Source: a virus. Taken from it: 64,000 nt of DNA. The position numbers were made by a program, and so were the translations under genes. Positions 3,922-57,207 of this stretch are shown here, piece by piece; position 1 is the first letter of the stretch; each line of letters begins with the position of its first letter. The stretch covers positions 1 to 64,000 of IMG/VR virus record IMGVR_UViG_3300042445_001170; one strand, written 5' to 3'. A model generated the notes under the pieces. The model did no database searches. It worked only from the letters and a program-made list of their open reading frames with translations, and had not been told where the DNA came from.

Positions 3922-3928
3922 TTATATC

Positions 3929-12261: not shown

Positions 12262-12420
12262 ATGGCAAGGGATCATTTTTCACAAGCATCTAAGAATCCT
12301 AGGTATCAGAGTAGATTTTATACTCACGGGGAATCTAAAGAGTTCATGTCAGAAAGAAAGATTGAATTATTTTTCTCAAAAATATTTTCTAAATTAAAAA
12401 GAATAGTTGGTAAAAAGTAA
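12262..12420 (+). CDS. small basic protein
   Basis: 52 residues, strongly basic C-terminus (KLKRIVGKK). A TATAAT stands 9 nt upstream of the ATG, so the message may be leaderless. Its stop shares one base with the next gene's ATG (TAATG). Function unknown; possibly nucleic-acid binding. Confidence 0.5.
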   Translation: MARDHFSQASKNPRYQSRFYTHGESKEFMSERKIELFFSKIFSKLKRIVGKK

Positions 12421-13244
12421 TGTTTACAGACAATCCAAAGGTAGAACAAGTTGCAGAACAGGTCTGGATTTACAGAGGATTCATAACCCCAGAAGAAAAT
12501 GAAAATATCATGCGTTTAATGAGAGAGCATGAAGCTGCTTACAAAGATTCAAAAGATGCGTTTGTATTTAAAGATCAGTATATAGACTGGTACAAGGACA
12601 AGACTGGCCCATCAATGCCTGAGCTAAAACCAATATGGGACAGACTTTCAATGATGCTTTATCCAGAACACTACATTCATCCACAGCTATTTGTAAACGT
12701 AATGCGTCCTGGCGATGAAGGAATGTTTGTGCATGCTGATAGTCCAGGAATGAATATGGAGCATGACCTAACTCAGCTAGACAGATGGTCAACTTGCTGC
12801 AGATTAAGCCATGGAGTGGTTGCTTATATGGGAGACTACGAAGGCGGAGAAATATTTTATCCAAATATTGAAGCAGATGGAAGAATTAAAGATAGACCAG
12901 GAGATCCTGATGATTGCTTGCAGGTAGACGTAAGACCTGGAGATGTAGCAATCCATGGAGCAACTCATCCCTGGGAACATGGAGTAAGGAAAATAACAAG
13001 TGGGATTAGATTTGCATACTCTAACTTCTGCATGGAAAAGGAACACGCTCCAGGAACATACGAGCTATTTGATCCAGCCAAACATCCGTTTATGACAGAT
13101 CCAAAAGAAATCATAAACTGGAACAACACTGTTTATCCTGAAACAACTTTCTGCAAAAAGAAATGTATATGCGGGGACTCTGCTGACTTTCCTTATTGCG
13201 ACAACACTCATAAAGAAGTAAATAAACTTAAATATAAGAAGTAA
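12420..13244 (+). CDS. 2OG-Fe(II) oxygenase fused to a CDGSH iron-sulfur domain
   Basis: 274 residues. The first ~210 form a prolyl-4-hydroxylase-like double-stranded beta helix: H105 and D107 (FVHAD), H187 (PWEHGV) as iron ligands and R197 for 2-oxoglutarate. Residues 249-264 read CICGDSADFPYCDNTH, the CDGSH pattern C-x-C-x2-S-x3-P-x-C-D-x2-H that binds a 2Fe-2S cluster (C249, C251, C260, H264). Known for the families: hydroxylation of peptides or small molecules, and redox-active cluster. The fusion is unusual and suggests oxygen or redox sensing, or electron supply. Substrate unknown. Confidence 0.85.
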   Translation: MFTDNPKVEQVAEQVWIYRGFITPEENENIMRLMREHEAAYKDSKDAFVFKDQYIDWYKDKTGPSMPELKPIWDRLSMMLYPEHYIHPQLFVNVMRPGDEGMFVHADSPGMNMEHDLTQLDRWSTCCRLSHGVVAYMGDYEGGEIFYPNIEADGRIKDRPGDPDDCLQVDVRPGDVAIHGATHPWEHGVRKITSGIRFAYSNFCMEKEHAPGTYELFDPAKHPFMTDPKEIINWNNTVYPETTFCKKKCICGDSADFPYCDNTHKEVNKLKYKK

Positions 13245-13387: not shown

Positions 13388-13388
13388 A

Positions 13389-14194: not shown

Positions 14195-14205
14195 ATTACT
14201 CCTTG

Positions 14206-14479: not shown

Positions 14480-14499
14480 GATATTAGTATACCATAATT

Positions 14500-15402: not shown

Positions 15403-15438
15403 TTATTTATCCTCTTCTTTGTAAAGTTCTAAATACAA

Positions 15439-16113
15439 TTATATCACCACAGCTTTGCTTTCTTGTACTGCAACTTCAATGAACATATCGTACAGGTTTT
15501 GTGTTAATTCTTGGTTTAGTCCATCGACATCATGGCCTTTTGTTTTGTCACTAGAATCCAGGGTAAGTTCTTTAAGCCCCAATGCATCAAATATCTCTTT
15601 TTGAGTGATTACTCTTAGCCCAAGGGCCGAACCATACTCGTTTAGTGCGGCGCAAAATTCATTATTTTGCTGAAGACGTTCATCATAGGAGTATTCATCT
15701 ACTTCTTCCCAATACGGAATAATGTTCTCTTTAAACTGAGGATGTGGCTCTGCAAGTATCATCTGCGAGTTTGGAAAATATTGAATTAAAAAATCAACAT
15801 AGCGTTTGACACATTCAGCAGCATTTTTGTATTTAGGCAGTAGGTACTTTATGTCAATGTATCCAAACCAGGCTATTACTATGCCATCATCTTGGATTTC
15901 TGACCATCCTACTCTTCCCCCCTTTGGTTTTGGAGTTTCCATTAGTGAAGAGTATCGATTCATTTTTAAAAGATCGTATGGATTAAATTTCCAAGCTGAG
16001 TGTCCACCTTTACCCCAAGCTTTTAATTCAACTCTTGTTTCTTTATCAGTATAATGTTCAAATATTCTAGTTGACTGACAATCACCTATTAGGTATAATT
16101 TTTTAGATATCAC
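15439..16113 (-). CDS. SGNH/GDSL-hydrolase-like protein, nucleophile altered
   Basis: 224 residues. LIGDCQS at 8-14 aligns with block I (GDS) but has Cys in place of the usual Ser. Other shared pieces with the paralogue at 52691-53437: W-x-GYIDI(K/R), the (A/M)EP-x-PQF segment and a C-terminal helix. Family members act as esterases on acyl groups of glycans or lipids; this copy may use Cys, or be a binding protein. Located between two oxygenase genes. Confidence 0.65.
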   Translation of the reverse strand: MISKKLYLIGDCQSTRIFEHYTDKETRVELKAWGKGGHSAWKFNPYDLLKMNRYSSLMETPKPKGGRVGWSEIQDDGIVIAWFGYIDIKYLLPKYKNAAECVKRYVDFLIQYFPNSQMILAEPHPQFKENIIPYWEEVDEYSYDERLQQNNEFCAALNEYGSALGLRVITQKEIFDALGLKELTLDSSDKTKGHDVDGLNQELTQNLYDMFIEVAVQESKAVVI

Positions 16114-16222
16114 TTGATCTTAGGTCTTAGGTCTATATATATTAATTTATATGATTTACTGATTTACTGACCCCCCGACCCCCCTATTGGAAGTATACTA
16201 TTTAGAAATTCTATGTCAAGGA

Positions 16223-16921
16223 CTAGCTTAGCTTTAAATTCTTATCCTCAATAAAGTAATCTCTTCTCCAGGCTTTTCCAATGTCAGTATTTAGCCAATC
16301 AGTCGCAGTATAAATACTATTAATAGTTTTTGCAGACTCTTCATGAGCTCTATTAGATACTGCAATGCAGCTGTTTTCTTTACCTGATTTATTTGTAGGA
16401 TCAATAGGCAAATCTCTATCGTATAAGCTGAATGTGATGGTTCTCTTATTGTCAGTAGTTACAGGTGTAGCTCCATGTGGACATGAAGCAGCATGGATGA
16501 GAAGATCTCCCTTATGTGGCTTTACCGTCAAATTTTCTTCTGGGTAAAATACAATTCCGCCGTCCTCATTTGTTTCTGATAGGTATATAACAGCAGACCA
16601 TACTTTTGTATAAGGAGTTTCATCATCGGCTTCATTATCTCTATGTATACCAAACCATGTGTTTGCAGGAGTGTGCCAATGCAAGAAGTATTTTAGTTCC
16701 CAATTAAGATCTTTAAAAATTTCCTTTGCTTTGTCTTGTATTCCGTTATCTATTGCCGCCCCCAGAACTTCAATCTTGTCATAAGGCCTTACTTCTTTTT
16801 CGTCGTTATTAGATGAATACTCTGATGCCTTAAATGCTTCGTCAGCTGTTTCGTTGTCTAAAAATCCACGCCAAATATAAGAATGGTCACTTATTTTTTC
16901 AAAATTAGTAGTATCAAACAT
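16223..16921 (-). CDS. 2OG-Fe(II) oxygenase
   Basis: 232 residues. H93 and D95 (GIHRD), H149 (CPHGATP) and R160 (KRTITF) form the metal and co-substrate sites, with the EDGGIVFYP strand before the distal His. P4H-like fold. First gene of a three-gene minus-strand group (this gene, the SGNH-like gene and the 300-residue oxygenase). Confidence 0.85.
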   Translation of the reverse strand: MFDTTNFEKISDHSYIWRGFLDNETADEAFKASEYSSNNDEKEVRPYDKIEVLGAAIDNGIQDKAKEIFKDLNWELKYFLHWHTPANTWFGIHRDNEADDETPYTKVWSAVIYLSETNEDGGIVFYPEENLTVKPHKGDLLIHAASCPHGATPVTTDNKRTITFSLYDRDLPIDPTNKSGKENSCIAVSNRAHEESAKTINSIYTATDWLNTDIGKAWRRDYFIEDKNLKLS

Positions 16922-32666: not shown

Positions 32667-32897
32667 TTAAGCTTCAGGTGAAGGAGTCGGACCTTCGTTA
32701 TCAGGTTCGGAACCTGGAGTACTGCCGTTATACGAACCTGAAATATTCTTCGGAATAATTCGCTTAATCTCGTAGCAACAGTCTGGGCATTCGCCCTTAT
32801 ACAACCAATTACCTGAATCTAAGACAACCATTTCGGTCAATCTGCCTGAAACATTTTTCTTGCATAGAACACAAAATGCGTCCAGCTTTATAGTCAT
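32667..32897 (-). CDS. small zinc-ribbon protein with Pro/Gly tail
   Basis: 76 residues: CVLCKKN near 9 and CPDCCYE near 38 form a zinc ribbon (DUF5679-like spacing); the last 20 residues are a flexible G/P/S/E tail. Confidence 0.6.
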   Translation of the reverse strand: MTIKLDAFCVLCKKNVSGRLTEMVVLDSGNWLYKGECPDCCYEIKRIIPKNISGSYNGSTPGSEPDNEGPTPSPEA

Positions 32898-33028
32898 TCT
32901 TCTAGAAGATGTTCATTTTCTTTAAAAGCTTTTAGAATAGCTTCTCTAAGCTTATCATTCTTTAGTGCATTATGTGTACCATTACATTCTGGATACGCAT
33001 CTGATAAGCCACATTTACATAGCGCCAT
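32894..33028 (-). CDS. mini CDGSH iron-sulfur protein
   Basis: 44 residues. CKCGLSDAYPECNGTH at 4-19 fits C-x-C-x2-S-x3-P-x-C-x-G-x-H, the CDGSH 2Fe-2S motif with Asp replaced by Asn. Only a short helix follows, so this is close to the minimal domain. Overlaps both neighbours by a few bases. Probably a redox or iron-sulfur carrier; one of three CDGSH domains in the window. Confidence 0.75.
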   Translation of the reverse strand: MALCKCGLSDAYPECNGTHNALKNDKLREAILKAFKENEHLLEE

Positions 33029-33296
33029 TTGTTTCAGCCTCTCTTAGCCACTGATCTTCCCATAACCCCATAAGCGATTCGTTACCAATATCATCAAAGT
33101 AGTAACGCTTATTTACAGGATTAAAGGTCCAGCCGTACCATCTATCACCTTCAGACCATGTTAGATTAGTTGGGCCTTCCTCTTTGTACTCTGACAGTCT
33201 ACGTAGCAATTCATCATTCTCATGAACAACAGCCTCAATTGCCTCTCTAAGGCGTTTAGGCCTCATGAGATATTTCTCTACAAAATTAAACAACAT
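33015..33296 (-). CDS. hypothetical protein
   Basis: 93 residues: basic helical start, then a W-rich, beta segment (WYGWTFNPVNKRYYFDD). Overlaps the CDGSH gene by 14 nt. Confidence 0.6.
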   Translation of the reverse strand: MLFNFVEKYLMRPKRLREAIEAVVHENDELLRRLSEYKEEGPTNLTWSEGDRWYGWTFNPVNKRYYFDDIGNESLMGLWEDQWLREAETNGAM

Positions 33297-33304
33297 ATTA
33301 TCTC

Positions 33305-33490
33305 CTAGTATGGCCCATATGCATTAAAATGAAGGTATGAATATACCTTATCCGTATTACCTGATTGTATCAGCTCCATAGGTATGCCGTCAAGGGCTGT
33401 GTTGTGTCCGTATAGCCATTTTAAAGCATTTCCTACGTTGTCTCCCACAATAGAAAATAGCATATCTACGATCTCATCTGTTTTATTCAT
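33305..33490 (-). CDS. MbcA/ParS/Xre-antitoxin-C-like protein
   Basis: 61 residues. ALKWLYGHNTALDGIPMELI followed by a Gly/Asp turn and V-x3-L fits the DUF2384 toxin-binding domain of Xre/MbcA-type antitoxins. There is no N-terminal HTH and no RES-type toxin beside it, so it may be a stand-alone antitoxin that blocks a host system. Confidence 0.6.
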   Translation of the reverse strand: MNKTDEIVDMLFSIVGDNVGNALKWLYGHNTALDGIPMELIQSGNTDKVYSYLHFNAYGPY

Positions 33491-33765
33491 TTTGGATCTT
33501 TAATTGGCGACTTATCTAAACTAAAATAATTAGTTTGATGTCCAAACTTCATCTTATTTAATCTTTTATTGATAGCCCGCCACATTCCCCATTCTGTGTA
33601 TGCAAGCCCGCCTTTACAAGCTGCTCCCCAGTAGCCGTCATTTGGCCCATCGCCCATTTGATACCATTTTTGAATATCCCAAAATCTAGCCCTTGGACCA
33701 TATTTCCAATCACGGTGAACTTTGATTATATATGCTGGACGATCTACAGATTTCTTTTTGCTCAT
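33487..33765 (-). CDS. basic hypothetical protein
   Basis: 92 residues, basic, W/Y-rich (RFWDIQKWYQMGDGPNDGYWG). ATGA overlaps on both sides. Unknown. Confidence 0.6.
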   Translation of the reverse strand: MSKKKSVDRPAYIIKVHRDWKYGPRARFWDIQKWYQMGDGPNDGYWGAACKGGLAYTEWGMWRAINKRLNKMKFGHQTNYFSLDKSPIKDPK

Positions 33766-33947
33766 CCTAACTCCTTCTCAATAGCCTGAATAACTTCTTT
33801 AACAGGAACACAGCAATGACCTTTTTTGTCTAAAAAATTACACAATTCCACTACTGCACGAAGGGCTCGCATAGATTGTGGGTCACCGTTGTAATAAGCA
33901 ACATCTAATCTGCGGTTAATTTCAATTAGCAATTCATCGTATGTCAT
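33762..33947 (-). CDS. small hypothetical protein
   Basis: 61 residues from MTYDELLIEINRRLD; the preceding GGAG is at suitable distance. Central helix and CCVPV. ATG overlaps the upstream stop. Confidence 0.55.
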   Translation of the reverse strand: MTYDELLIEINRRLDVAYYNGDPQSMRALRAVVELCNFLDKKGHCCVPVKEVIQAIEKELG

Positions 33948-34162
33948 CATTGCTCCATCATAGCATTTATACCCTTGATTACACAAGTGTCTATGCCATC
34001 TCCATATCTATGGGTAAACTTTTTACCTACCCTCCATAGCTGATCGTCTTCTATGATTAAATAGTCATTGATTGAATCAGGATCTGTATCTCCTGCAACC
34101 CGCCCAATGTGGTATGTCTTAATTAGCCTATCGTTAACGTATATTGGAATGTGTATTGGCAT
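33947..34162 (-). CDS. small hypothetical protein with SD inside tRNA-Gln
   Basis: 71 residues from MPIHIPIYVNDRLIK. The only good ribosome site is GGGGGAGAG, which is the 3' acceptor strand of tRNA-Gln. A longer frame would start within the tRNA and is rejected. Confidence 0.55.
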   Translation of the reverse strand: MPIHIPIYVNDRLIKTYHIGRVAGDTDPDSINDYLIIEDDQLWRVGKKFTHRYGDGIDTCVIKGINAMMEQ

Positions 34163-34163
34163 G

Positions 34164-34234
34164 CTCTCCCCCAAGGATTCGAACCTCAATAGCCAGGACC
34201 AAAACCTGGAGTCCTACCGTTAGACGAGAGGAGA
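34164..34234 (-). tRNA. tRNA-Gln(TTG)
   Basis: 71 nt: acceptor TCTCCTC/GGGGAGA, anticodon stem CCAGG/CCTGG with loop TTTTGGT, T-arm with TTCGAAT. Confidence 0.9.
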
Positions 34235-34239
34235 CTATG

Positions 34240-34322
34240 CGGAAACAATAGGATTCGAACCTATGGATCTTTCAATCTACGATTTAGCAAACCGTTGCAT
34301 TCGACCACTCTGCCATATTTCC
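34240..34322 (-). tRNA. tRNA-Ser(GCT)
   Basis: 83 nt, class II with extra arm: acceptor GGAAATA/TGTTTCC, anticodon stem ACGGT/ATCGT, loop TTGCTAA, T-arm TTCGAAT. Confidence 0.88.
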
Positions 34323-34483
34323 TTGTGTCGGGTCAGTTTATAGATTCCACACTGTAAGGCCTTTAACCGAGTCCCCCGACGAGACCGTACAGTAGACTCC
34401 TAGTTGCCCCTGTAGTTTGCGTAAACAGAAAGCTAACTTTTCGTAGCTACCGAAAGTTCCTACTGCCATACAAACGTTTCCCG
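34323..34483. ncRNA. structured spacer in the tRNA array
   Basis: 161 nt without tRNA fold or gene. Contains GTCGGG...CCCGAC as a long-range stem (~34328-34381) and a hairpin AACTTT...AAAGTT (~34434-34457). Confidence 0.3.
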
Positions 34484-34554
34484 CACCGTCTCTAGGAGTC
34501 GAACCTAGGCTTGCCGCTTTGGAGACGGCAGTGCTACCATAACACTTAGACGAT
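34484..34554 (-). tRNA. tRNA-Trp(CCA)
   Basis: 71 nt: acceptor ATCGTCT/AGACGGT, anticodon stem GCCGT/GCGGC with loop CTCCAAA, T-arm CTAGG-TTCGACT-CCTAG. Confidence 0.88.
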
Positions 34555-34685
34555 ATGTGATCAATAGGTCTACGAGCAGACTAACCTAATGATCGTGATA
34601 TATGAGGATTTACTATCGCTCGTTGTCCTCCAGTTGTCCCCGTCGGGAGTCAGTCTCAATTACCTGAAACTCAACTTTAATATCG
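34555..34685. ncRNA. structured spacer in the tRNA array
   Basis: 131 nt, no tRNA fold. ACGAGC...GCTCGT and GAGGA...TCCTC inverted repeats. Confidence 0.25.
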
Positions 34686-34759
34686 TACATCAGGTAGGAG
34701 TTGAACCTACAACAATTAGTTCCTAAGACTAACGCCTCTACCAGTTGGGCTACTGACGC
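34686..34759 (-). tRNA. tRNA-Leu(TAG), short variable arm
   Basis: 74 nt: acceptor GCGTCAG/CTGATGT, anticodon stem TTAGT/ACTAA with loop CTTAGGA, T-arm GTAGG-TTCAACT-CCTAC. Anticodon TAG reads CUA. The variable loop is only ~5 nt, unlike the long arm expected of bacterial Leu tRNAs. Confidence 0.75.
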
Positions 34760-34929
34760 AAATGCTAGCCACGACTTGGGTTCTTAACCTAAACCATCTG
34801 CTAGCTGTTATACCTAGTTACGACCACAGAGCCTATCCATCAGCCTGAACGCCTTCATAAGATGCAGGTAACAGTGCTAAGTTCGGTATAACTATCTCCG
34901 TACAGGTTGTTCAGACCTTATACTTTGAG
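34760..34929. ncRNA. structured spacer in the tRNA array
   Basis: 170 nt, no tRNA fold. A perfect 8-bp stem GTTATACC/GGTATAAC encloses ~75 nt (about 34805-34892). Confidence 0.3.
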
Positions 34930-35004
34930 TGGCGGATATGGGATTTGAACCCATGACCTAAAGCTTATGAGGCTTTCGAGCTAACCGAACTGCTCTAATC
35001 CGCT
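34930..35004 (-). tRNA. tRNA-Met(CAT)
   Basis: 75 nt: anticodon stem AAAGC/GCTTT with loop CTCATAA, T-arm ATGGG-TTCAAAT-CCCAT. The first acceptor pair is A-C, so unpaired as in initiators, but the anticodon stem lacks the GGG/C run. Confidence 0.82.
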
Positions 35005-35043
35005 GTGGAGATTAAGTATAGTACAGAACTAAATCCCTGTCAA

Positions 35044-35340
35044 CTATATTTGAATTGCCATTACACTCTTGGCATTAAGTAATAGATACTTAGTGTTGTC
35101 ATCATCTTCAACTTCCGTCCCAGAATGCTCTGGATAAAGGATTACATCTCCCACATTGATTCCGCCAATCGGGATCAGGTCGCCCTTGTAGTTGTATTCA
35201 CCTTCGCCCATGCTAATTACTGTAGCTTTATTTGGGCCTTGATCTGAGAACGTGGCAGATAGCACTAAGCCTGTAGCCGTTGTCTTTTCGCCTGTTTCAA
35301 TCTTCTTGATAAGCAACATTCCACCTATAGGTTTAATCAT
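35044..35340 (-). CDS. groES: GroES-like co-chaperonin
   Basis: 98 residues. KPIGGMLLIKKIETGEKTTA..G, VISMGEGEY and GDVILYPEHSGTEVE are typical of Cpn10. Phage co-chaperonins (as T4 gp31) cap host GroEL for capsid folding. The mobile loop (~15-35) is present. Confidence 0.88.
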   Translation of the reverse strand: MIKPIGGMLLIKKIETGEKTTATGLVLSATFSDQGPNKATVISMGEGEYNYKGDLIPIGGINVGDVILYPEHSGTEVEDDDNTKYLLLNAKSVMAIQI

Positions 35341-35456
35341 TGTCTATGCCTTTTCTTATTTCCATAACGAGCCTTGACTTCTGCCTTAGCTTTATCTACA
35401 ATAGATTGCGTTAAAACATCTACATTAAATTCATCATCAAACTGCTGTTCGTTCAT
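35337..35456 (-). CDS. small hypothetical protein
   Basis: 39 residues, acidic start and basic end (ARYGNKKRHRQ). ATGA overlap with groES. Confidence 0.5.
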   Translation of the reverse strand: MNEQQFDDEFNVDVLTQSIVDKAKAEVKARYGNKKRHRQ

Positions 35457-35553
35457 CTGGATCCTTTTCCCATGTAAGTTTTCCATCTTTATATACAGGC
35501 CAATATCCTAATGAACGCCAGTCCATTTTCATAATCTTTGGCTCTCTTGGCAT
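35437..35553 (-). CDS. small hypothetical protein
   Basis: 38 residues (MPREPKIMKMDWRSLGYWP...). Overlaps the next gene by 20 nt. Confidence 0.5.
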   Translation of the reverse strand: MPREPKIMKMDWRSLGYWPVYKDGKLTWEKDPDERTAV

Positions 35554-35563
35554 ACCACACACC

Positions 35564-36193
35564 TTAACCACGCATATATGGAAACAGTATGTAAGAGTAT
35601 AAATCATAGTTATCAAGAAGTGCTGGGTTGTCAGCCATATTACCTAAATTCATCTTCATAAGTGTCTTGTAATCAACCGTTATCATCATTGCTGGCTCTT
35701 TTTGATTTATATTTCCATACTGGTCTACTGATGGGAATGTTCCAGTAATGCATGCAGAGGCATTCTTATCCCACACTATTTCTTTATACTCAGTAAGGAT
35801 AGCAATCATATCTCTTTGACCACCACGAATTCTTGAGTCTTTGAATAAGTTATCAGAGATTGGAAACTTTACGAGTACGCAATCAGATTTACTATAACTT
35901 ACGTAGACATCTACATCTAACTCAGACTGAACATTTTTTCTAAATTCCTTAATGGGGTCTTTATTTTCATTCTTTGGATCTTCTAATACAGACTGAACTT
36001 CTTTTGCTGTTGTCTCAACAATCTTTTCTTTTTCTACTGTTGGTGGAAGTGTAGCACCAATTGCAATAAAAAGAATTGTGGGCAGAACTACTGCAAATGC
36101 CAGTAGTGATTTAGAGATAGTCTTTCTTTTAACAATTGCTACAACCATAGCAATTAAACTTAGTAGGTACAGAATAATAAATAAATCCGACAT
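35564..36193 (-). CDS. two-span membrane protein with extracytoplasmic domain
   Basis: 209 residues: membrane helices at ~4-21 and ~28-49, then a soluble domain (~60-209) with a coiled-coil start and beta core. No family recognised. Has its own promoter at 36244-36272. Confidence 0.6.
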   Translation of the reverse strand: MSDLFIILYLLSLIAMVVAIVKRKTISKSLLAFAVVLPTILFIAIGATLPPTVEKEKIVETTAKEVQSVLEDPKNENKDPIKEFRKNVQSELDVDVYVSYSKSDCVLVKFPISDNLFKDSRIRGGQRDMIAILTEYKEIVWDKNASACITGTFPSVDQYGNINQKEPAMMITVDYKTLMKMNLGNMADNPALLDNYDLYSYILFPYMRG

Positions 36194-36243
36194 TTTAATC
36201 CTTTGTTTAGATACATTGTCCGCCCGACCCTGTATATACCTAA

Positions 36244-36272
36244 AGTATACTATATATGATGGGACCCGTCAA
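36244..36272 (-). promoter_or_regulatory. sigma70-type promoter
   Basis: On the minus strand TTGACG, 17 nt, TATACT, reading to the membrane-protein gene. The remaining ~130 nt to 36400 show nothing clear. Confidence 0.65.
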
Positions 36273-36399
36273 TAGTCTTTTGGCCCGCCTGACTCTCATG
36301 ATACTGTAAATGAAAATCCATTAGCTGATACGTGACCGCACAGAAGCATATTGAACAATGTGTGAGCCATTGGGACTTATCTTCCCAGGCTTTAGCCAA

Positions 36400-36492
36400 C
36401 TACTTGTTGCCCCTTAATTTCTTATACTCTTTAATAAAAGCAACTATGGTCACTATCAATACAAACACACACATAATAAAATAAAGGATCAT
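36400..36492 (-). CDS. tiny membrane peptide
   Basis: 30 residues, one helix then a basic tail (KEYKKLRGNK). ATGA overlap with the oxygenase upstream. Confidence 0.45.
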   Translation of the reverse strand: MILYFIMCVFVLIVTIVAFIKEYKKLRGNK

Positions 36493-37100
36493 AGGAATTC
36501 ACCAGTAAAATTAACATTTGCGCTTAATCTAAATTGAGATGTATGGGGGTAGCTCCAACTATGAAACCTATCTGAGTAGAAAATGGCGCATGCTCCAGCT
36601 TTAGGGTGTATCTCTTTAATTATACTAAGATCTTCTACCGTTGTCTTTTTGCCATCGTACATCTTGTTGTAAAGGGTTGTAGGGCCTTCTGAGTCATTGA
36701 TATAGTACATGAAAGAGAACCCTCCGAACCTTCCATTAAGGTCTGTATGGATGGGAAGAGTCCTTTGATCGCTATTTTTTACTGTTAGGTTGACTCTTAC
36801 TCTTAAAAATTTATCAACACGAATCTTATACTTATCTGCAAAGGCATTCAATATCTCTGATAAGATAGGGGTAGATAGACTTGGCATTCCTAGAATTGAC
36901 TTATCTCCAAGAAGTATCAATCCATCCTGTGTTTGATCGGTATCTATACCAGATAGTCCATCAGTTTCTGCCCCAACAGTTTCCTGCATATAGTAGGGCA
37001 TATTCATAAATATTTTTTTATATTTCTCTATTTGTTCTTTGCTAAATATGTCTTCATCATAGATATACCCTGGGTCTACCAAAAGGTGTTCGTTGCTCAT
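36489..37100 (-). CDS. 2OG-Fe(II) oxygenase
   Basis: 203 residues. H118 and D120 (IHTD), H180 or H186 (RFHSWSYPH) and R191 (FRLSANV). Short version of the P4H-like fold. Substrate unknown. Confidence 0.85.
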   Translation of the reverse strand: MSNEHLLVDPGYIYDEDIFSKEQIEKYKKIFMNMPYYMQETVGAETDGLSGIDTDQTQDGLILLGDKSILGMPSLSTPILSEILNAFADKYKIRVDKFLRVRVNLTVKNSDQRTLPIHTDLNGRFGGFSFMYYINDSEGPTTLYNKMYDGKKTTVEDLSIIKEIHPKAGACAIFYSDRFHSWSYPHTSQFRLSANVNFTGEFL

Positions 37101-37137
37101 GTATATATCCTACTATTTCTATTAGTTTATTGCAATA

Positions 37138-37275
37138 CTAGCTGACGTAAAAGTTTCTCATATGAGTCTTACATACGGAAATTATTGTTGCCCCTAGCTG
37201 ATCCCAGTAAATACCTGGCTCACTACAAAAATGACATTTGTCATCGTATGGCTTATTAACATCAGTCGTGTTCAT
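37138..37275 (-). CDS. small zinc-binding-type protein
   Basis: 45 residues from MNTTDVNKPYDDKCHFC, with CHFC and CKTH. Preferred over a longer frame that would overlap the upstream gene by 68 nt; GGAG lies upstream. Confidence 0.55.
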   Translation of the reverse strand: MNTTDVNKPYDDKCHFCSEPGIYWDQLGATIISVCKTHMRNFYVS

Positions 37276-37483
37276 ATCTATCTTTAATTCTCCTCCACCT
37301 TCCCCATTGGGTAGGTACATCGAGTCCAATATACTCCTGGCCAGTTTCTAAGTCAATAAGAAGCCATTTCCCAGGAGCTTTTGTATGAATTGTTAAGTTA
37401 ACAGCCTCTTCAAATTCGTGAACTTCTGCTCCTTGATACATTTTAGGTAAAAAGGTATAGACATTGTTAAGTAATTTTCTCAT
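37262..37483 (-). CDS. hypothetical protein
   Basis: 73 residues, alpha/beta (GKWLLIDLETGQEYIGLDVP). No motif. Confidence 0.55.
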   Translation of the reverse strand: MRKLLNNVYTFLPKMYQGAEVHEFEEAVNLTIHTKAPGKWLLIDLETGQEYIGLDVPTQWGRWRRIKDRYEHD

Positions 37484-37504
37484 ACAGATACTATTATATC
37501 TTAT

Positions 37505-37648
37505 TTAAACTGCTAATTCCCTTGGTAACATTATTTCGCATTTGTCACAGTAATCATAAATAGATCCAGTGTACGGACATTGCCCAGCTTCAATTAAATT
37601 ATGCCCATTAAAATAACATTTAATTCTGTTAAAGTAATGACTAATCAT
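37505..37648 (-). CDS. small Cys-containing protein
   Basis: 47 residues from MISHYFNRIKCYF, with CPYTGSIYDYCDKC. Start overlaps the end of the CDGSH gene. Confidence 0.55.
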   Translation of the reverse strand: MISHYFNRIKCYFNGHNLIEAGQCPYTGSIYDYCDKCEIMLPRELAV

Positions 37649-37772
37649 CTTGCTTTTCTTTATCCCAAGGCGGAGGTTCAACTGGAGGTCTGCCGTGTGA
37701 CCCATCGCATACTGGATAGGACAAAGACCTACCGCATTGACACATTACTACTGCTGGATATTTGGTAGCCAT
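37641..37772 (-). CDS. CDGSH iron-sulfur protein in the ahp operon
   Basis: 43 residues. MCQCGRSLSYPVCDGSH at 10-26 is an exact CDGSH motif. Ligands C11, C13, C22 and H26. A proline-rich acidic tail follows. Starts on the stop of ahpD (TAATG), so the three redox genes are coupled. Likely a small 2Fe-2S redox partner. Confidence 0.85.
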   Translation of the reverse strand: MATKYPAVVMCQCGRSLSYPVCDGSHGRPPVEPPPWDKEKQDD

Positions 37773-38284
37773 TATGCTGAAAGTATCTTTGATAAAGCGT
37801 TAATTGTTGCAGATATTCTACCGATATCTCTTAACTGCTCCACTGTGTACCCCTCTTCTTTTAATGTCTCATAATGTGCTTTTACACAAAAATGACACTT
37901 TCCTATAATAGATGAGGCTAGCGAGTAGGCTTCAAACTTTGCCTTTGTAGTTCCGCCATGAGTTGCAATAGCATTCATTCTTAGCTGTGCTGGCAATCCT
38001 TTAAGATTTGCATCGTCTGCCATTTCTATAAATGGATACCAAACATTATTTTGTGCCATGATTGCGCCAGCAGTAAGGGCTGCATTTTTTTCAACTTCGT
38101 CCGTTGCATTTGCAACAATAAAAGTTAGCAACTTAGAATTGCCAGTAGAAAAAGCAGCAGCTATTGAAAGATACAATGCATGTTCTGGATCAATAGTTGA
38201 TCTGTTTATCACAGCATCAAGATTTAATCTAATATCTTTTGCATACTCTGGAAGATTTTCGTTTAGCTGTCCTACCCAAGACAT
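37772..38284 (-). CDS. ahpD: alkyl hydroperoxidase AhpD-like
   Basis: 170 residues. E118, C130, C133 and H137 (ECxxCxxxH layout; KCHFCVKAH) coincide with the mycobacterial AhpD active site. AhpD reduces AhpC and has weak peroxidase activity. Directly downstream of ahpC with overlapping ends. Confidence 0.92.
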   Translation of the reverse strand: MSWVGQLNENLPEYAKDIRLNLDAVINRSTIDPEHALYLSIAAAFSTGNSKLLTFIVANATDEVEKNAALTAGAIMAQNNVWYPFIEMADDANLKGLPAQLRMNAIATHGGTTKAKFEAYSLASSIIGKCHFCVKAHYETLKEEGYTVEQLRDIGRISATINALSKILSA

Positions 38285-38820
38285 TATAGCGTTTCTCCGC
38301 CAAGAGGTCTATTGCATGCACAAAGCTCACCAGTTTGGAGGGCATCTAGAACACGCAATGCTTCTCCTGCATTACGACCTACATCTAAGTTGTTGCATGT
38401 TACATGCTGAATAATGTTATCTGGATCTATAATAAATGTTGCACGGTATGTGACGCCAGATGAGTGATGTACTCCTAGATCGTTTGCTAAAGCGTGTGAT
38501 GTGTCTGCAAAAGACCATGAGTTAGTTTTCTTAAGATCTTCATGGGCATTTCTCCATGCAATTTTGCAGAACTCATTGTCCACTGATCCAGTCATAAGCA
38601 CTGCATCTCTGTCATTAAAGTCATTTACTAATGCATCGTAGGCAACAATTTCTGTTGGGCAAACAAATGTAAAATCTTTTGGATAGAAAGCAATGATCTT
38701 CCATTTTCCTGGGAATGAGTCTTGTGTCAACACTTCAAATGAGCTATCTTCATAAGATAAAGCCCCTGGCTTAACTCCAGTTACTGCGAAGTTGCCTAAT
38801 TTCTCTCCTACTGTTTTCAT
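38284..38820 (-). CDS. ahpC: peroxiredoxin AhpC
   Basis: 178 residues. Peroxidatic C54 in FVCPTEI, C-terminal CAC (C167, C169) for resolution. Actinobacterial-type AhpC that reduces hydroperoxides. First main gene of ahpC-ahpD-CDGSH; it likely protects the infected host cell from oxidants. Rare in phages. Confidence 0.92.
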   Translation of the reverse strand: MKTVGEKLGNFAVTGVKPGALSYEDSSFEVLTQDSFPGKWKIIAFYPKDFTFVCPTEIVAYDALVNDFNDRDAVLMTGSVDNEFCKIAWRNAHEDLKKTNSWSFADTSHALANDLGVHHSSGVTYRATFIIDPDNIIQHVTCNNLDVGRNAGEALRVLDALQTGELCACNRPLGGETL

Positions 38821-38906
38821 ATTACTACCGAATCTAATACAATGTCTACAGCATCATCCAATGATGTAGTGTGTTCTTTGGAACAATTACCGCATTCTTT
38901 ACACAC
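38817..38906 (-). CDS. tiny Cys-containing peptide (GTG start)
   Basis: 29 residues (VCKECGNCSKEH...), CxxCxxC then an acidic helix. Overlaps the ahpC start. Confidence 0.4.
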   Translation of the reverse strand: MCKECGNCSKEHTTSLDDAVDIVLDSVVI

Positions 38907-38908
38907 GG

Positions 38909-39115
38909 TTAAACTTTCTTTCTGCCGCTTTTCTTTGGAGGTCTAGGTACTAAGCTAGTCTCTCTTCGTATCCCATGTTTATTTGTATCAATCTTAACAC
39001 CTTGTCTTGGATACCTTTTAGGTGTACTTGTGCTTGTGACAGCACCAGCTGGTGCACCAGCATTTGCTGGTGGCACCATGCCAGTACCATCTTCTTTTTT
39101 TAAACTATCTGACAC
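38909..39115 (-). CDS. small basic Pro/Ala-rich protein (GTG start)
   Basis: 68 residues, disordered, basic C-terminus (RPPKKSGRKKV). The GTG overlaps the upstream stop. Confidence 0.5.
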   Translation of the reverse strand: MSDSLKKEDGTGMVPPANAGAPAGAVTSTSTPKRYPRQGVKIDTNKHGIRRETSLVPRPPKKSGRKKV

Positions 39116-39246
39116 TAATCTATGTCCTGTCCATTTGCGCCTTTTGGCTCTGACATTTCGTGTGTCGATGATTCTTCTATTTCCACAGACATCATTCCTG
39201 ACGCTGATCCAATAGAGTTAGACTGACAACCGCATTCAATACACAT
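39115..39246 (-). CDS. small acidic Cys-containing protein
   Basis: 43 residues (MCIECGCQSNSIGSA...). Overlaps both neighbours by 1 nt. Confidence 0.5.
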   Translation of the reverse strand: MCIECGCQSNSIGSASGMMSVEIEESSTHEMSEPKGANGQDID

Positions 39247-39425
39247 TAGTTGCAGTTCTCACAATCTTTTATTGCACATTCGGCATCGCCTCTTGTGTCT
39301 CTAGTGCATTCTGCTCCAGACTTAGCTGGGGCTGCAACTGGTGCAACTGCAGGTGTTGCTACTACTGCGGCTACTGCTGCTTCTACTGATGCAGCAACAA
39401 CTTCTTCTTTATCAAATAGACCCAT
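39246..39425 (-). CDS. Ala/Val-rich protein with Cys tail
   Basis: 59 residues: acidic start, Ala-Val-rich middle and C-terminal C...C...CENCN. Confidence 0.5.
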   Translation of the reverse strand: MGLFDKEEVVAASVEAAVAAVVATPAVAPVAAPAKSGAECTRDTRGDAECAIKDCENCN

Positions 39426-39427
39426 TT

Positions 39428-39577
39428 TTACTTTGGGCCCTGTGCTGATGCTTGGTTAGAAACATCTGTTGCTGGAAATGCGGCTGCTGGCGCCTCTGTG
39501 TAGTTCTCTGTTGCCCATGGTGATGATCCTGCTGGCTTTGTTTCATTAAATCCTTTTAAATCTTTTCCGTCTGACAT
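39428..39577 (-). CDS. small disordered protein
   Basis: 49 residues, Ala/Pro/Ser-rich. In the chain of small genes leading to ahpC. Confidence 0.45.
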   Translation of the reverse strand: MSDGKDLKGFNETKPAGSSPWATENYTEAPAAAFPATDVSNQASAQGPK

Positions 39578-39658
39578 GTTGTGCTCCTATAGGTTATTTA
39601 TTTAAACGGGACTAGTATTCCGCTTATGGATCTATTATAGCATTTGGTTGATTAAAAC

Positions 39659-40453
39659 CTACTCGTTGCTATTTTCCCAGCCATACCATGGCTTTACTCC
39701 ACTATCAGATTTATTGTCCAAGACTATGCCCTTTGAGACAGATTCCTCTAGCATTTCTTTTGTTATTTCCACTTCTGTTTCATACATTGGCCTTACTCTA
39801 GGCCTCATCTTGTCCCGCTCATGATAAAGGAATGAAATCATATTAATTCTTTCGCCAGACTCAACTTTTTTTACTCCATGTGGTAGGCTGTAGTCGCCTT
39901 CAAAAAAGACTAAGGTTCCTGTTTTTGGCTTATATTCAAAATCTTGGAATGGGAAAAACAGCTCCCCACCAGTATACTCTTCATTTAAATATAAAAGTGC
40001 CGCTCTATCTTCGTATTCATGCTCTCTTATTTTAAGCCCGCCTTCTGAATCAACATAGTGGTTGTCCATGTGAAGCTTATTTTCTGCTCCTGGCTTCATG
40101 TGACTATAAAACATGCTTTTTGCAACAAATGGAGTTCCATAGAAATCTGAAACCGCTTTAACCATTGAAACCGATATCAATTGAAATAGATCTAGGCTTA
40201 AATCATATGCTGGGTCACCAGTATATTTAGAAACATATTCGTATGGGGTAACGGCATTTCCAGACAATCCGCCAGATATATATTGATTATGCGGTGTCAC
40301 TGTAAGGTATTGATTTTGTATTGCTGTTAGCATTTTTGCTGTATGTGGTGATATAAAGTTTTCAACAACATGTATTTTATCAAAATAAGTTTTTACTTCT
40401 TTAAAGTAATATCTATCTGGGTCCTCAAGAAAAGGTCTATCTTGATCTAACAT
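39659..40453 (-). CDS. 2OG-Fe(II) oxygenase
   Basis: 264 residues from MLDQDRPFLED, preceded by GAGGAA; a longer start would overlap the upstream gene. H128 and D130 (KLHMDNH), H192 (LPHGV), R202 (ERINM), with YTGGELFFP between. P4H-like. Substrate unknown. Confidence 0.87.
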   Translation of the reverse strand: MLDQDRPFLEDPDRYYFKEVKTYFDKIHVVENFISPHTAKMLTAIQNQYLTVTPHNQYISGGLSGNAVTPYEYVSKYTGDPAYDLSLDLFQLISVSMVKAVSDFYGTPFVAKSMFYSHMKPGAENKLHMDNHYVDSEGGLKIREHEYEDRAALLYLNEEYTGGELFFPFQDFEYKPKTGTLVFFEGDYSLPHGVKKVESGERINMISFLYHERDKMRPRVRPMYETEVEITKEMLEESVSKGIVLDNKSDSGVKPWYGWENSNE

Positions 40454-40455
40454 AT

Positions 40456-40704
40456 TTATTCCTCTATCTGTGCCCATGGCGTTGCTCTATGCATGCCAGA
40501 ATATTTACAAGGGCAAGCAATTCTGAATGGCCCTTCGAACTTAAGTCTTGTTTTAATATCAATTTGAGTTAAGCAGTCTGGACATATAAAAGTTGCAGAT
40601 ATCCAGTGCCCAGCTATCGGGTTATTTTCTTCTGTTTCTTTTTTATACTTTTCGTTTAGTTCAACTGCTAGCTTAACTTGACTTTCAAGACTATCTTTTT
40701 TCAA
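40456..40704 (-). CDS. zinc-binding-type protein (TTG start)
   Basis: 82 residues: helical start, CPDC and CPCKYS. The TTG start overlaps the upstream stop; function unknown. Confidence 0.55.
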   Translation of the reverse strand: MKKDSLESQVKLAVELNEKYKKETEENNPIAGHWISATFICPDCLTQIDIKTRLKFEGPFRIACPCKYSGMHRATPWAQIEE

Positions 40705-42397: not shown

Positions 42398-42598
42398 TTA
42401 GTTTAGTTCTATTACTTTTACTTGGAATGAGCACGGATCTCCGCCTTCATCCCATTCTTGCATTTCTTCTTCTGTCATTGGCGGACCATCATGTGTATTA
42501 CAAAATACATCTGATATCCAGCCTCTGTCATAACCATTCTTGAGCCATATTTCAAACTCTACATGATTAATGTATCCTTCATCAGGGTCTAGATCCAT
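42398..42598 (-). CDS. hypothetical actinophage protein
   Basis: 66 residues, acidic. VFCNTHDGPPMTEEE and GGDPC are typical of a small, uncharacterised actinobacterial/phage family. Overlaps thioredoxin by 10 nt. Confidence 0.65.
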   Translation of the reverse strand: MDLDPDEGYINHVEFEIWLKNGYDRGWISDVFCNTHDGPPMTEEEMQEWDEGGDPCSFQVKVIELN

Positions 42599-42891
42599 TC
42601 TGAAAGCTCCTCTAAAATGAGATGCTTAGGCTTGGCGCCAACAATAGTTTTAATTGGCTTCCCAGACTTAAATAGTACCATATACGGGATAGTGGTTACA
42701 GAGTATTCTGCTGACTTGATGGGATTCTCATCAACATTTAACTTTCCAATCCATAATCCACGCTCATTTGATATCTCGTCTAGTATTGGAGATACCTTTT
42801 TGCATGGACCACACCATGGGGCCCAAAAGTCGATAAGAACTAAGTTGTGTGACTCAAGAACTTTATCAAAACTTTCATCTGTAACGATCAA
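42589..42891 (-). CDS. thioredoxin
   Basis: 100 residues with WCGPC at 26-30 and the cis-Pro segment TTIPYMV near 70. Reduces disulfides; probable partner for NrdJ's C-terminal Cys pair and for peroxiredoxin. Confidence 0.93.
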   Translation of the reverse strand: MIVTDESFDKVLESHNLVLIDFWAPWCGPCKKVSPILDEISNERGLWIGKLNVDENPIKSAEYSVTTIPYMVLFKSGKPIKTIVGAKPKHLILEELSEWI

Positions 42892-45983: not shown

Positions 45984-46296
45984 TATTTTTTCCCCCAGGC
46001 TTTCCTTCAAGCTCTACTCTAACACCATATGATTCCAAAATATTTTTTACCATTTCTACATACTCTATAACTCTGACTCTCATTGAGCCGTCGTATTGTG
46101 CAAAATTATCTTCGTAAAGCCTTATTGCTAGGAACTCTGGATACTTTACAATGTCCATCTGCAAGTTGCCGTCTGGCTTTTTCAGCTCCCTTATTTTAAG
46201 TGCCATGTCCTTATTATAAAATGTTGGCTTATTTGGTTCACCAGTCCACTCATTGACACCGTATTTAAAATGATCTTTATTCTTATCAATAAACAT
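45976..46296 (-). CDS. hypothetical protein
   Basis: 106 residues, mostly helical C-terminal half (VRVIEYVEMVKNILESYG). Overlaps whiB by 11 nt. Confidence 0.6.
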   Translation of the reverse strand: MFIDKNKDHFKYGVNEWTGEPNKPTFYNKDMALKIRELKKPDGNLQMDIVKYPEFLAIRLYEDNFAQYDGSMRVRVIEYVEMVKNILESYGVRVELEGKPGGKNNG

Positions 46297-46597
46297 GCTT
46301 TTCCTTTATTCTTTTCCATACTTCTTTTGTCTTATGTGCATTTCTAACTTTGTCATGAGACCCAGAATTTAAATAAACTCCACCCCATACTCCATAATCA
46401 CTATTTGATACCCCGCTGTCATAGCATAACTTAATGACTGGGCACGATAGGCATGCCTCGTCTATGCTTTTTGCTATATTGACATCTGCTTCATACTTAT
46501 CAAAAAAAAGATTAGTGTCCATTCCCAAGCAAAGGGCTAGCTTGTACCAATCTAAATTATCTTCATCTACATTTAAACTATTTAAAATATTTGACAT
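46286..46597 (-). CDS. WhiB-family transcription regulator
   Basis: 103 residues from MSNILNSLNVDED; an earlier start would overlap the previous gene by 86 nt. C23, C49, C52 and C58 (C...CLSCPVIKLC) bind a 4Fe-4S cluster, and YGVWGG at 68-73 is the WhiB turn. Phage WhiB proteins typically act with the host sigma factor. Actinobacteria-specific. Confidence 0.92.
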   Translation of the reverse strand: MSNILNSLNVDEDNLDWYKLALCLGMDTNLFFDKYEADVNIAKSIDEACLSCPVIKLCYDSGVSNSDYGVWGGVYLNSGSHDKVRNAHKTKEVWKRIKEKHVY

Positions 46598-46811
46598 ATC
46601 GTTTTGGCAGTTCCCAGATTCCTTCACGGCTGACAGAAATCTTTTCTGCCTTACCCCAAGCATCTTTCCTATACATGCCTTTTACATCAGTATAGCCGCC
46701 ACTATCTTTTTTCCAAATTACAAGATCATAGTTATTCCAAAACGATTCTTGTAACTTTGTTTGAGATCTTTTAATAAAAACCTCAACACCTTTCTCCGTT
46801 AGATGTAACAA
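46578..46811 (-). CDS. hypothetical protein (TTG start)
   Basis: 77 residues from a TTG at 46811 preceded by AAAGG; longer frames run through tRNA-Leu and tRNA-Asn and are rejected. Basic, W/Y-rich. Overlaps whiB by 20 nt. Confidence 0.5.
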   Translation of the reverse strand: MLHLTEKGVEVFIKRSQTKLQESFWNNYDLVIWKKDSGGYTDVKGMYRKDAWGKAEKISVSREGIWELPKRYVKYFK

Positions 46812-50442: not shown

Positions 50443-50859
50443 TTATTTGATCTTTAGTATTTTGGGTTGTTTTTCTTTAGGTAGATTTCTGATTACACGG
50501 ATATGTAGCATACCGTCTTTTAGCTCTACACTTGAAACTTCCATGTATTCACTGAGTTCAAAGATCCTTGTAAACTTACGTGCAGCAATTCCTTTATGGA
50601 CAACTTCTCCATCTGTTACTGACGTAATTTCTCCTGTTATCCATAGACTTCCGTCCTCAATTGATACAGTTAGATCTTCTCTTGTGAATCCAGCAACTGC
50701 CAGCGATAGCTGGTAGTTGTCATCGTCTAGTTTTAATAAATCATACGGCGGAAAAGCTGTATTGTTTACCTTGCTTAGACTGTTAAAACGTTCCAACTCT
50801 CGGTTGAAACCAATAAAAAATGGATCCTTGAAAAGATCCATGGCGAATTGTGTTACCAT
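50443..50859 (-). CDS. small heat-shock protein Hsp20/IbpA-like
   Basis: 138 residues. FPPYDLLKLDDDNYQLSLAV then AGFTREDL and the C-terminal alpha-crystallin segment. Holdase chaperone, as in other large phages. Confidence 0.85.
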   Translation of the reverse strand: MVTQFAMDLFKDPFFIGFNRELERFNSLSKVNNTAFPPYDLLKLDDDNYQLSLAVAGFTREDLTVSIEDGSLWITGEITSVTDGEVVHKGIAARKFTRIFELSEYMEVSSVELKDGMLHIRVIRNLPKEKQPKILKIK

Positions 50860-53937: not shown

Positions 53938-55736
53938 ATTATTTGCATCCTGTCCATTGCTTCTCTTAAGTCTTCAGGCATTCTTGGCGCCCTAATCATA
54001 TTATAACTTGTTGTTTCAGGATCATCTTTTGATCCAAAATCATTATCGTAACTCATTGATTCATATGTATGTATATTTATCTCTTGGTTATTATCAAACT
54101 TTGTTCTGCTTATTGAATTAAATATAGCGCCACATGTAGCATCTGCTAAGTCCTTAGAGCCTTTTCTTGGGTGGTCCACCCTGTCTCTCATAATTCTAAG
54201 CTGGCAGAGTTCGTCAATAAGCAAAGGTATATGTGGGCCAATCAATCTTTCTTCCGCAACGATCATAGCCATATCATCATAATGTTTTTTAGCGACAGAC
54301 AGAATCTCTGTATTGATGCCATATTGTTTTAGTTGTTGCATCATATCATGAGAGTTCCATCTGTCAAAGGTACATACTGCTATATTGAATCCCCTTGTTT
54401 TAAGAGACAGAATATAGTCTTTTACTTCAGTAAAATCTACAGATTTATCTGGGGTCGGGGTCCAGTATCTAACAGCGTCAATCTCCACAATTGGAGCAGG
54501 CTGTGAATATGTGTCTGTTACTTTAACATTGACCCACCTATTAACGTGTGCCATAGTAACGGCACAATGGTCATGCTTCTGCGCTAAGTCTACATGGATA
54601 TAATATTTTTTATCTGGGTCTGGAAGAAACCACTCCTCCAGTCTTCCAAATGTATCTACTGCTATTTGTCCTACGCTAAAAGCTTTTTCTACTTTTTCTC
54701 TTGATTTAAAAAATGCATCAACTGCGTCAGGTGGCATGCAAGCAAATCTTGATAAAGCGTCTGTTGGGTTTGTATAGAAGGCTGTCTTAAAGTCATCAAT
54801 TTTTCTAACTGGGTTGATCTCCCAAGTCGGGCGCTTAATAGCATATACTTTAGGTATCTTGTAAGATATGATATGGTCTTCTTCCCACTGTATTTCAAAC
54901 TCATTGCCATCCGTCCCATCAGGAATCTCTTCATACATTTTAAACTTATGTTCCCTGATTACCGTTTCCTTTTCGCCAATTACAGCATCATATCTTTGCT
55001 GAATATAATCATTCTTAAATCTAGGAAATGAAAGCAATATAACTTTGCCAAAATCTGGGAAACGTGAGTCAACGGATGCCCTGTACATGTCATAAACTGC
55101 ACTACCAGTTTTTGCTTGATCATGGCCAGTTGTATTTTCAATTGCAAATCCAGATATCTCGTCAAGAATAACAACTATAACGTTGTATCCTTCCCACGCC
55201 TCTCTTTCCGAGTGCCCAGAGTGAACTGTGATTGCCTTGTCAAACTGTATTTCAGATGCCTTTGCATAGTATTTACCAACAAACCATGGAGACTTGTCTA
55301 TTCGGCTTCTAAAGCCTTTAAAAAACACATTGCTTGCTTGCTGCGAGTTTATAGCAATATTAATTATATCAATTGAGTCACCAGGAGGCTTGCCATAATA
55401 TGTTGCTGGGTCTTTTAAACATAGTAGTAAATAAACTATGTAGGCTACAGCAATTGTTGAGCAATAATCTTTTCCAGAGCCTTTACCTAATTGTGCTACA
55501 ACTTCATTAGCGGTTTGTTTAAATCTAATAGCACCTTCTTCTTCACCAAATAATTTTTTTAGCGTAGACTCTTTATAAATCTGAGAGCTTTTTTCAATTA
55601 AAGTATACTGATACTCTGATAGGGGCGGCAAGCCCAAGTAGTTTGGATCATTTACAAATGTCCTTAAATCTACTGGCTTTTCTTCAAACTCTTCACCGTC
55701 CAGAATATCTATTAAGTCAGAAAAATCAAAGGTCAT
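53934..55736 (-). CDS. terL: terminase large subunit
   Basis: 600 residues. Walker A GKGSGKD at 84-90, Walker B VIVVILDE at 186-193, and a C-terminal RNase-H-like nuclease with D383 (HVDLAQ), D458 (CTFDRW) and a late DLADA Asp near 553. Packages DNA with the small terminase encoded upstream. Overlaps the upstream gene by 4 nt. Confidence 0.95.
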   Translation of the reverse strand: MTFDFSDLIDILDGEEFEEKPVDLRTFVNDPNYLGLPPLSEYQYTLIEKSSQIYKESTLKKLFGEEEGAIRFKQTANEVVAQLGKGSGKDYCSTIAVAYIVYLLLCLKDPATYYGKPPGDSIDIINIAINSQQASNVFFKGFRSRIDKSPWFVGKYYAKASEIQFDKAITVHSGHSEREAWEGYNVIVVILDEISGFAIENTTGHDQAKTGSAVYDMYRASVDSRFPDFGKVILLSFPRFKNDYIQQRYDAVIGEKETVIREHKFKMYEEIPDGTDGNEFEIQWEEDHIISYKIPKVYAIKRPTWEINPVRKIDDFKTAFYTNPTDALSRFACMPPDAVDAFFKSREKVEKAFSVGQIAVDTFGRLEEWFLPDPDKKYYIHVDLAQKHDHCAVTMAHVNRWVNVKVTDTYSQPAPIVEIDAVRYWTPTPDKSVDFTEVKDYILSLKTRGFNIAVCTFDRWNSHDMMQQLKQYGINTEILSVAKKHYDDMAMIVAEERLIGPHIPLLIDELCQLRIMRDRVDHPRKGSKDLADATCGAIFNSISRTKFDNNQEINIHTYESMSYDNDFGSKDDPETTSYNMIRAPRMPEDLREAMDRMQII

Positions 55737-56852: not shown

Positions 56853-56879
56853 ATATAAATTATACCATGTTTTAGTTGA

Positions 56880-57206: not shown

Positions 57207-57207
57207 T

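Follow-up and report, generated by a model that had tools for sequence, protein, structure and literature searches.

The window analysed here, bases 1–64,000 of the 112,167-bp IMG/VR virus record IMGVR_UViG_3300042445_001170, carries on its minus strand an ahpC-ahpD gene pair followed directly by a gene for a 43-residue protein with a CDGSH iron-sulfur motif. A preliminary description of this DNA had proposed that the micro-protein is a dedicated iron-sulfur partner in an alkyl-hydroperoxide defence. The genes on which the analysis turns, including those of two further CDGSH domains and of a 2-oxoglutarate (2OG)-Fe(II) oxygenase, are as follows, with the Pfam match of each:

38284..38820 (−): ahpC, 178 residues, 2-Cys peroxiredoxin (PxxxTxxC54, C167/C169); PF00578, 1.7e-22
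37772..38284 (−): ahpD, 170 residues, CxxC alkylhydroperoxidase and AhpC reductant (E118, C130, C133, H137); PF02627, 1.2e-8
37641..37772 (−): mini-CDGSH protein 1, 43 residues, contains CQCGRSLSYPVCDGSH; PF09360, 3.1e-8, 34.2 bits, over the cut-off of 29.5
32894..33028 (−): mini-CDGSH protein 2, 44 residues, contains CKCGLSDAYPECNGTH, a CNGTH variant; PF09360, 1.6e-5, 25.5 bits, under the cut-off of 29.5
12420..13244 (+): 2OG-Fe(II) oxygenase with a C-terminal CDGSH (CDNTH) domain, ends CICGDSADFPYCDNTH; tail 24.9 bits, under the PF09360 cut-off of 29.5
46286..46663 (−): WhiB, an Fe-S protein and host marker for Actinobacteria; PF02467, 2.3e-10

By its gene sequences the record is an actinophage, because it encodes WhiB together with a terminase that sequence comparison places at ~63% identity to those of Streptomyces phages, e.g. 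Gilson and Francob. Its host is probably an aquatic actinobacterium, and analogy with the WhiB actinophages described in the available text of PMC6802176 makes freshwater its likely source. WhiB also scored over its cut-off in 27 of 36 AhpCD-bearing records.

The phage ahpC-ahpD pair

Judged by sequence, the AhpC-AhpD pair is of the ordinary bacterial type, complete and intact in a phage. AhpC scored 80 bits against a PF00578 cut-off of 26 and contains both the active-site and the resolving cysteines; AhpD, a member of the CMD family, scored 35.2 against a PF02627 cut-off of 23 and contains the CxxC, the Glu and the His. Residues P47, T51, C54, C167 and C169 of AhpC were unchanged across 11 diverse viral sequences, as were E118, C130, C133 and H137 of AhpD across its viral set, in alignments that reach down to 66–70% identity. 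Pooled ratios of nonsynonymous to synonymous polymorphism (pN/pS) of 0.10 for AhpC and 0.156 for AhpD indicate strong purifying selection on both proteins.

The best Protein Data Bank (PDB) matches were M. tuberculosis AhpC (2bmx, 7e-44) and M. tuberculosis AhpD (1gu9, 3e-29; also 1me5). The likeness to the M. tuberculosis pair extends to the catalytic residues, to the numbering of the four AhpD positions, which is identical, and to the placement of ahpC directly upstream of ahpD. In contrast to that pair, the window pair is phage-borne, its genes overlap by 1 nt, its AhpD reads CHFC instead of CSHC and both proteins fall under the curated NCBIfam cut-offs. AhpC did not reach the equivalog TIGR03137, the AhpF-dependent type (110 bits against 272), and we do not claim it as a member of that subtype; AhpD did not reach TIGR00777 (116.7 bits over the full length, 1e-33, against 191.95). 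Lying so far under these cut-offs, the phage AhpC and AhpD therefore represent distinct branches.

Separate IMG/VR scans returned at least 597 viral contigs with AhpD relatives and at least 597 with AhpC relatives, the more distant AhpDs occurring in contigs of up to 343 kb. AhpD had zero matches among 50,697 annotated phage records. Annotated isolate phages yielded AhpC matches of no more than ~36% identity across most of its length; several resemble bacterial contamination, and the matches were not used. In the viral contigs ahpC and ahpD are nearly always joined through the same overlap as in the window. Their 3′ neighbours, named by eye, are highly varied (IMPDH-like, 2OG oxygenases, Dps-like, SDR and HAD-like), and because these differ strongly between contigs we regard ahpCD as a cassette. 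The Dps-like gene adjoins ahpCD in several contigs (L013, L017, L020). The two halves of the cassette also appear to have been swapped independently between phages, since their divergence within one contig can be very unequal (L014, L017, L021 and L074 versus L099, L100, L102 and L105): in some contigs AhpC is 70% and AhpD 86–92% identical, in others 94% and 66–69%. Among terminase relatives, 15 of 26 have no AhpC, an absence of little weight since most of these are fragments, and CDGSH occurs in three of the 26, all three AhpC-positive.

The nearest cellular relatives found were ahpC-ahpD operons of Betaproteobacteria, with 48–59% identity in AhpD. As in the window, ahpC lies upstream in 79 of 80 bacterial loci; unlike the window, these operons usually have ~58–80 bp between the genes and lack CDGSH for 6 kb around. 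The bacterial scan consisted of two short peptide patterns only, which may miss nearer actinobacterial relatives, so that this match does not by itself identify the donor of the phage ahpCD.

CDGSH micro-proteins at the locus

Both micro-proteins of 43–44 residues noted in the preliminary description are real open reading frames (ORFs) with all four cluster ligands, and the stop-start coupling it described was borne out at both junctions: ahpC to ahpD and ahpD to mini-CDGSH 1 each read TAATG, with a 1-nt overlap. Its count of three CDGSH domains in 64 kb holds for the ligands, since three Cys and one His are kept in all three, but only the protein at 37641–37772 has the canonical CDGSH and exceeds the Pfam cut-off. 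None is a complete CDGSH domain, as the matches cover only positions 29–48 of the 48-position PF09360 profile (29–47 in the 43-residue protein). Like the [2Fe-2S] proteins of the CDGSH type (mitoNEET/CISD; the bacterial and archaeal 3tbn, 3tbm and 3tbo), the micro-proteins follow C-x-C-x2-S-x3-P-x-C-D-G-S-H and have the four ligands; unlike them, they correspond only to the last 19–20 profile positions and have no N-terminal half. An AlphaFold model of the 43-mer was uninformative (predicted local distance difference test, pLDDT, 61). Across 11 DNA variants of the mini-CDGSH 1 gene, pN/pS was 0.06 in the motif block and 0.28 over the whole gene. Because of this strong purifying selection on the motif block and its recurrence in many contigs, we consider the gene real, beyond chance. 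Most likely the protein carries a [2Fe-2S] cluster and has its function in redox chemistry or the handling of iron. The mini-CDGSH had no match in annotated isolate phages.

To gauge how closely CDGSH goes with ahpCD, we counted 35 records selected for AhpC/AhpD and length, leaving outside the count five further records that had been added for carrying CDGSH. Any CDGSH was present in eight of the 35, and in five it lay directly behind ahpD. A CDGSH within 4 kb of ahpD was found in two of 26 viral AhpD clusters, and one within 6 kb in none of 80 bacterial ahpD loci, on which ground we reject bacterial inheritance of the ahpD-CDGSH order. Moreover, each part occurs alone at the same locus. In L178 and L179 the same upstream 68-residue gene and the same CDGSH stand side by side without ahpCD between them, and in the L179 record (G007) AhpC lies ~16 kb from CDGSH; in L068 a zinc-ribbon gene comes directly after ahpD with no CDGSH between. 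The order ahpC-ahpD-CDGSH-ribbon recurs in L010, L011, L018 and L170, and the 1-nt overlap of CDGSH with ahpD is kept across the window's branch. With these counts the word "dedicated" cannot be upheld for the iron-sulfur partner. The co-occurrence of AhpD and CDGSH, which the preliminary description had suggested checking in phages and hosts, is thus seen as coupling in the window's branch and in one unrelated phage (L595, below), but not in most AhpCD phages or in any of the 80 bacterial loci. Since most related viruses are without it, the mini-CDGSH looks optional and not like a fixed part of the peroxidase. Orthologues of mini-CDGSH 2 lie 1.2–4.1 kb downstream of ahpD in L068, L004, L214, L228 and L166, and at 4.7 kb in the window.

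Other small Cys genes and a thioredoxin gene surround the cassette:

38817..38906 (−): 29-residue Cys-rich microORF (VCKECGNCSKEH..., CxxCGxCxxEH), GTG start; its stop overlaps the ahpC ATG
37505..37648 (−): 47-residue small Cys protein (GHNL..CPYTG..YDYCDKC); 8-nt overlap with mini-CDGSH 1
32667..32897 (−): DUF5679-like zinc-ribbon gene behind mini-CDGSH 2; PF18930, 0.0077, under cut-off
42589..42891 (−): phage thioredoxin (WCGPC), TTG start; PF00085, 4.5e-26; possible electron donor

Variants of the 29-residue microORF recur in many phages, some with an ATG start and also without ahpCD (pN/pS 0.38), and 10 of 59 phage CDGSH groups have homologues of the 47-residue protein nearby. The microORF, the thioredoxin and WhiB are absent from the preliminary description. 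The DUF5679-like gene overlaps mini-CDGSH 2 by 4 nt in the window; in relatives, a homologue of this ribbon comes after mini-CDGSH 1. At its C-terminal end the DUF5679-like ORF runs through a predicted tRNA-Arg(ccg) gene (32671–32742, minus strand); its homologues elsewhere stop before that extension. A second stress-protein theme is provided by phage genes for GroES (Cpn10, 6.7e-19) and Hsp20 (5.5e-17) at 35044–35340 and 50443–50859, both on the minus strand.

CDGSH domains and 2OG-Fe(II) oxygenases in phages

A strict DNA motif pattern located CDGSH in at least 119 viral stretches. Among the matches listed, the phage CDGSH proteins span 24 to ~300 residues and occur as stand-alone micro-proteins, as proteins of ~72 residues with a small N-terminal domain and as oxygenase fusions. 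A phage family of 67–73 residues combines a small, beta-rich-looking N-terminal domain with a C-terminal CDGSH (L209, L220, L250, L266, L267, L281, L286, L291, L293), and in another phage group tiny CDGSH proteins of 24–34 residues are found mostly behind a conserved 80-residue gene (MSKRKGVSLRKEHKS...; L191, L195, L203, L205, L260, L262).

Within 1.5 kb of CDGSH, 2OG-Fe(II) oxygenases were the most frequent neighbours, present in 24 of 59 CDGSH groups with fusions included; the small CPxTG Cys protein was found in 10 and AhpC/AhpD in five of the 59. At the level of records, PF13640 occurred in 31/50 with CDGSH versus 5/50 random ones (Fisher p = 7e-8; phage lineage not corrected). Using a local control on the 59 groups, an oxygenase within 1 kb was seen in 21 against 13.7 expected (P about 0.001); neither at 300 bp nor at 3 kb did adjacency reach significance. 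This control weakened close adjacency as strong proof of a CDGSH-oxygenase link.

The fused oxygenase of the window (12420–13244) has H105, D107, H187 and R197 unchanged, forming the HxD...H...R facial triad, and its model (predicted TM score 0.78) shows the expected double-stranded beta-helix fold, matching Fe(II)/2OG enzymes in the PDB (best E 4e-6, TM 0.4–0.5). The CDGSH tail lies below pLDDT 50 in this model, so that its placement relative to the active site is unreadable. This fusion is the clearest finding: when relatives were retrieved with only the oxygenase part, 37 of 37 at 70% identity or more kept the fusion with all ligands. At 38–50% identity none of 43 oxygenases had a CDGSH tail, and five had a free CDGSH within 1 kb. 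Altogether there are four distinct types of CDGSH-oxygenase fusion. In six loci chosen for CDGSH (L221, L274, L230, L290, L235, L215), an oxygenase of the same subfamily stands 20–75 bp behind a free CDGSH motif. Phage CDGSH domains are tied to 2OG-Fe(II) oxygenases at least as well as to ahpCD. Two members or likely members of the family flank the cassette in the window:

36489..37100 (−): 2OG-Fe(II) oxygenase-like protein; PF13640, 7e-5, under cut-off; phrog_274, 1.8e-21; 0.5 kb downstream of mini-CDGSH 1
39659..40477 (−): 2OG-Fe(II) oxygenase; PF13640, 1.6e-10; 0.8 kb upstream of ahpC

Oxygenases of the 2OG-Fe(II) type, or proteins resembling them, number at least seven in the window, within 12420–16921, 36489–40477 and 55733–60898, and more candidates lie elsewhere in the genome (L593:18298-19965; L594:1-3882).

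Proposed roles of the cassette and of the micro-CDGSH proteins

The locus is best read as a cassette for peroxide defence that has next to it a small and mobile accessory module of the Fe-S redox/iron kind. It is fairly probable, in our judgement, that ahpC-ahpD defends the phage against peroxide in an actinobacterial host, with the mini-CDGSH as a small accessory and no obligatory AhpCD subunit. AhpC would reduce peroxide through C54, and AhpD would then reduce the resulting disulfide through C130/C133; re-reduction of AhpC by AhpD is established for mycobacteria. The electrons for AhpD may come from host dihydrolipoamide/Lpd or from thioredoxin, one being phage-encoded. Such a system would protect the infected cell as well as the phage's many oxygen- or peroxide-sensitive iron enzymes, namely the 2OG-Fe(II) oxygenases and WhiB. 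The mini-CDGSH would be a small redox or iron-handling protein of the [2Fe-2S] type belonging to the same accessory region, and where it is coupled to ahpD, as in the window's branch, it probably gains from or aids the same redox state. Its client may be AhpD, an oxygenase or neither. We infer the peroxidase activity, the electron donor, the cluster binding and the CDGSH role. As a point against this reading, AhpD could by itself work as a weak peroxidase.

Several observations speak against a merely accessory CDGSH and for one that genuinely takes part in peroxide defence: its [2Fe-2S] cluster would pass electrons to AhpD/AhpC or would sense peroxide and tune the system. Besides the overlap kept in the window's branch, an unrelated phage (G068/L595, record IMGVR_UViG_3300002161_000828) has a CDGSH ORF (3867–4074) that stops 16 nt inside the start of ahpD (4059–4565), with ahpC ~1.9 kb upstream. 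This phage carries genes for HNH and class II aldolase proteins, lacks any match to PF13640 and has an AhpD 56% identical to that of the window. L082 and L207 show a third arrangement, another CDGSH two genes behind ahpD. Because two unrelated lineages overlap and this arrangement exists as well, the link between CDGSH and ahpD may be functional. Additionally, AhpC is enriched in CDGSH phages (10/50 records versus 0/50 random, p = 0.001; phage lineage not corrected). CDGSH is nevertheless missing from most AhpCD phages, ahpCD and CDGSH are each found alone at the same locus, and bacterial precedent is absent from the 80 ahpD loci. For a [2Fe-2S] cluster to hand single electrons to a CxxC disulfide, a dedicated mechanism would also be required, and none is known for AhpD. 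We think a true peroxide-system component unlikely.

The micro-CDGSH might instead be a redox or iron partner of the phage 2OG-Fe(II) oxygenases, re-reducing the active site or supplying iron, in which case its closeness to ahpCD would reflect Fe(II) enzymes sharing one accessory region. The stable fusion in all 37 relatives, the four distinct fusions, the six CDGSH-chosen loci with free motifs 20–75 bp ahead of relatives of the fused oxygenase and the enrichment of PF13640 all point this way. However, in loci rich in oxygenases the adjacency exceeds what is expected locally by only a small margin, PF13640 is missing from 19 of the 50 CDGSH records and distant oxygenases are mostly without CDGSH, so we hold this partnership as a tentative possibility. 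Simple hitch-hiking, with CDGSH, the ribbon and other small Cys ORFs as accessory genes that are near ahpCD by accident, would fit the way small Cys genes (CPxTG, DUF5679, the 29-residue ORF) gather and shuffle at the locus and the presence or absence of ahpCD at one fixed position. The strong selection on the CDGSH motif, the independent CDGSH overlap with ahpD and the stable oxygenase fusion make it quite improbable. A phage-specific, optional yet repeatedly recruited micro-CDGSH module is a better description of the data than a dedicated partner. More speculatively, micro-CDGSH Fe-S domains, some of only 24–45 residues, might form an undescribed phage class of swappable redox/iron modules that serve enzymes of iron and thiol redox chemistry. 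Such modules would be attached to 2OG-Fe(II) oxygenases or encoded next to them, and would have become translationally coupled to AhpD on at least two independent occasions.

The system had been called new for phages, and published work narrows that claim. In the available text of PMC6802176, which covers many WhiB actinophages, more than 10% of freshwater phages bear oxidative-stress genes, and survival in grazers is proposed as a benefit of similar phage genes; ahpC has been reported in Microcystis viruses (PMC12542629). The window phage shares the possession of genes that mitigate reactive oxygen species with the phages of PMC6802176, but the genes named there are ferritin, SOD, glutathione peroxidase, thioredoxin and glutaredoxin, and "ahpc" is absent from the main text as available. 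The pair and its CDGSH may still be new: our literature search, with subscription papers and preprints outside it, turned up no publication on either a phage CDGSH or an ahpC-ahpD pair in a phage.

A complete bacterial peroxide-reductase pair is thus a common, conserved cassette of WhiB actinophages, isolated phages being without AhpD as far as tested. Minimal CDGSH domains are likewise widespread in viral contigs. Should these micro-domains prove to bind clusters, they would rank with the smallest Fe-S proteins in nature, and they would offer a handle on why such phages keep many 2OG-Fe(II) oxygenases.

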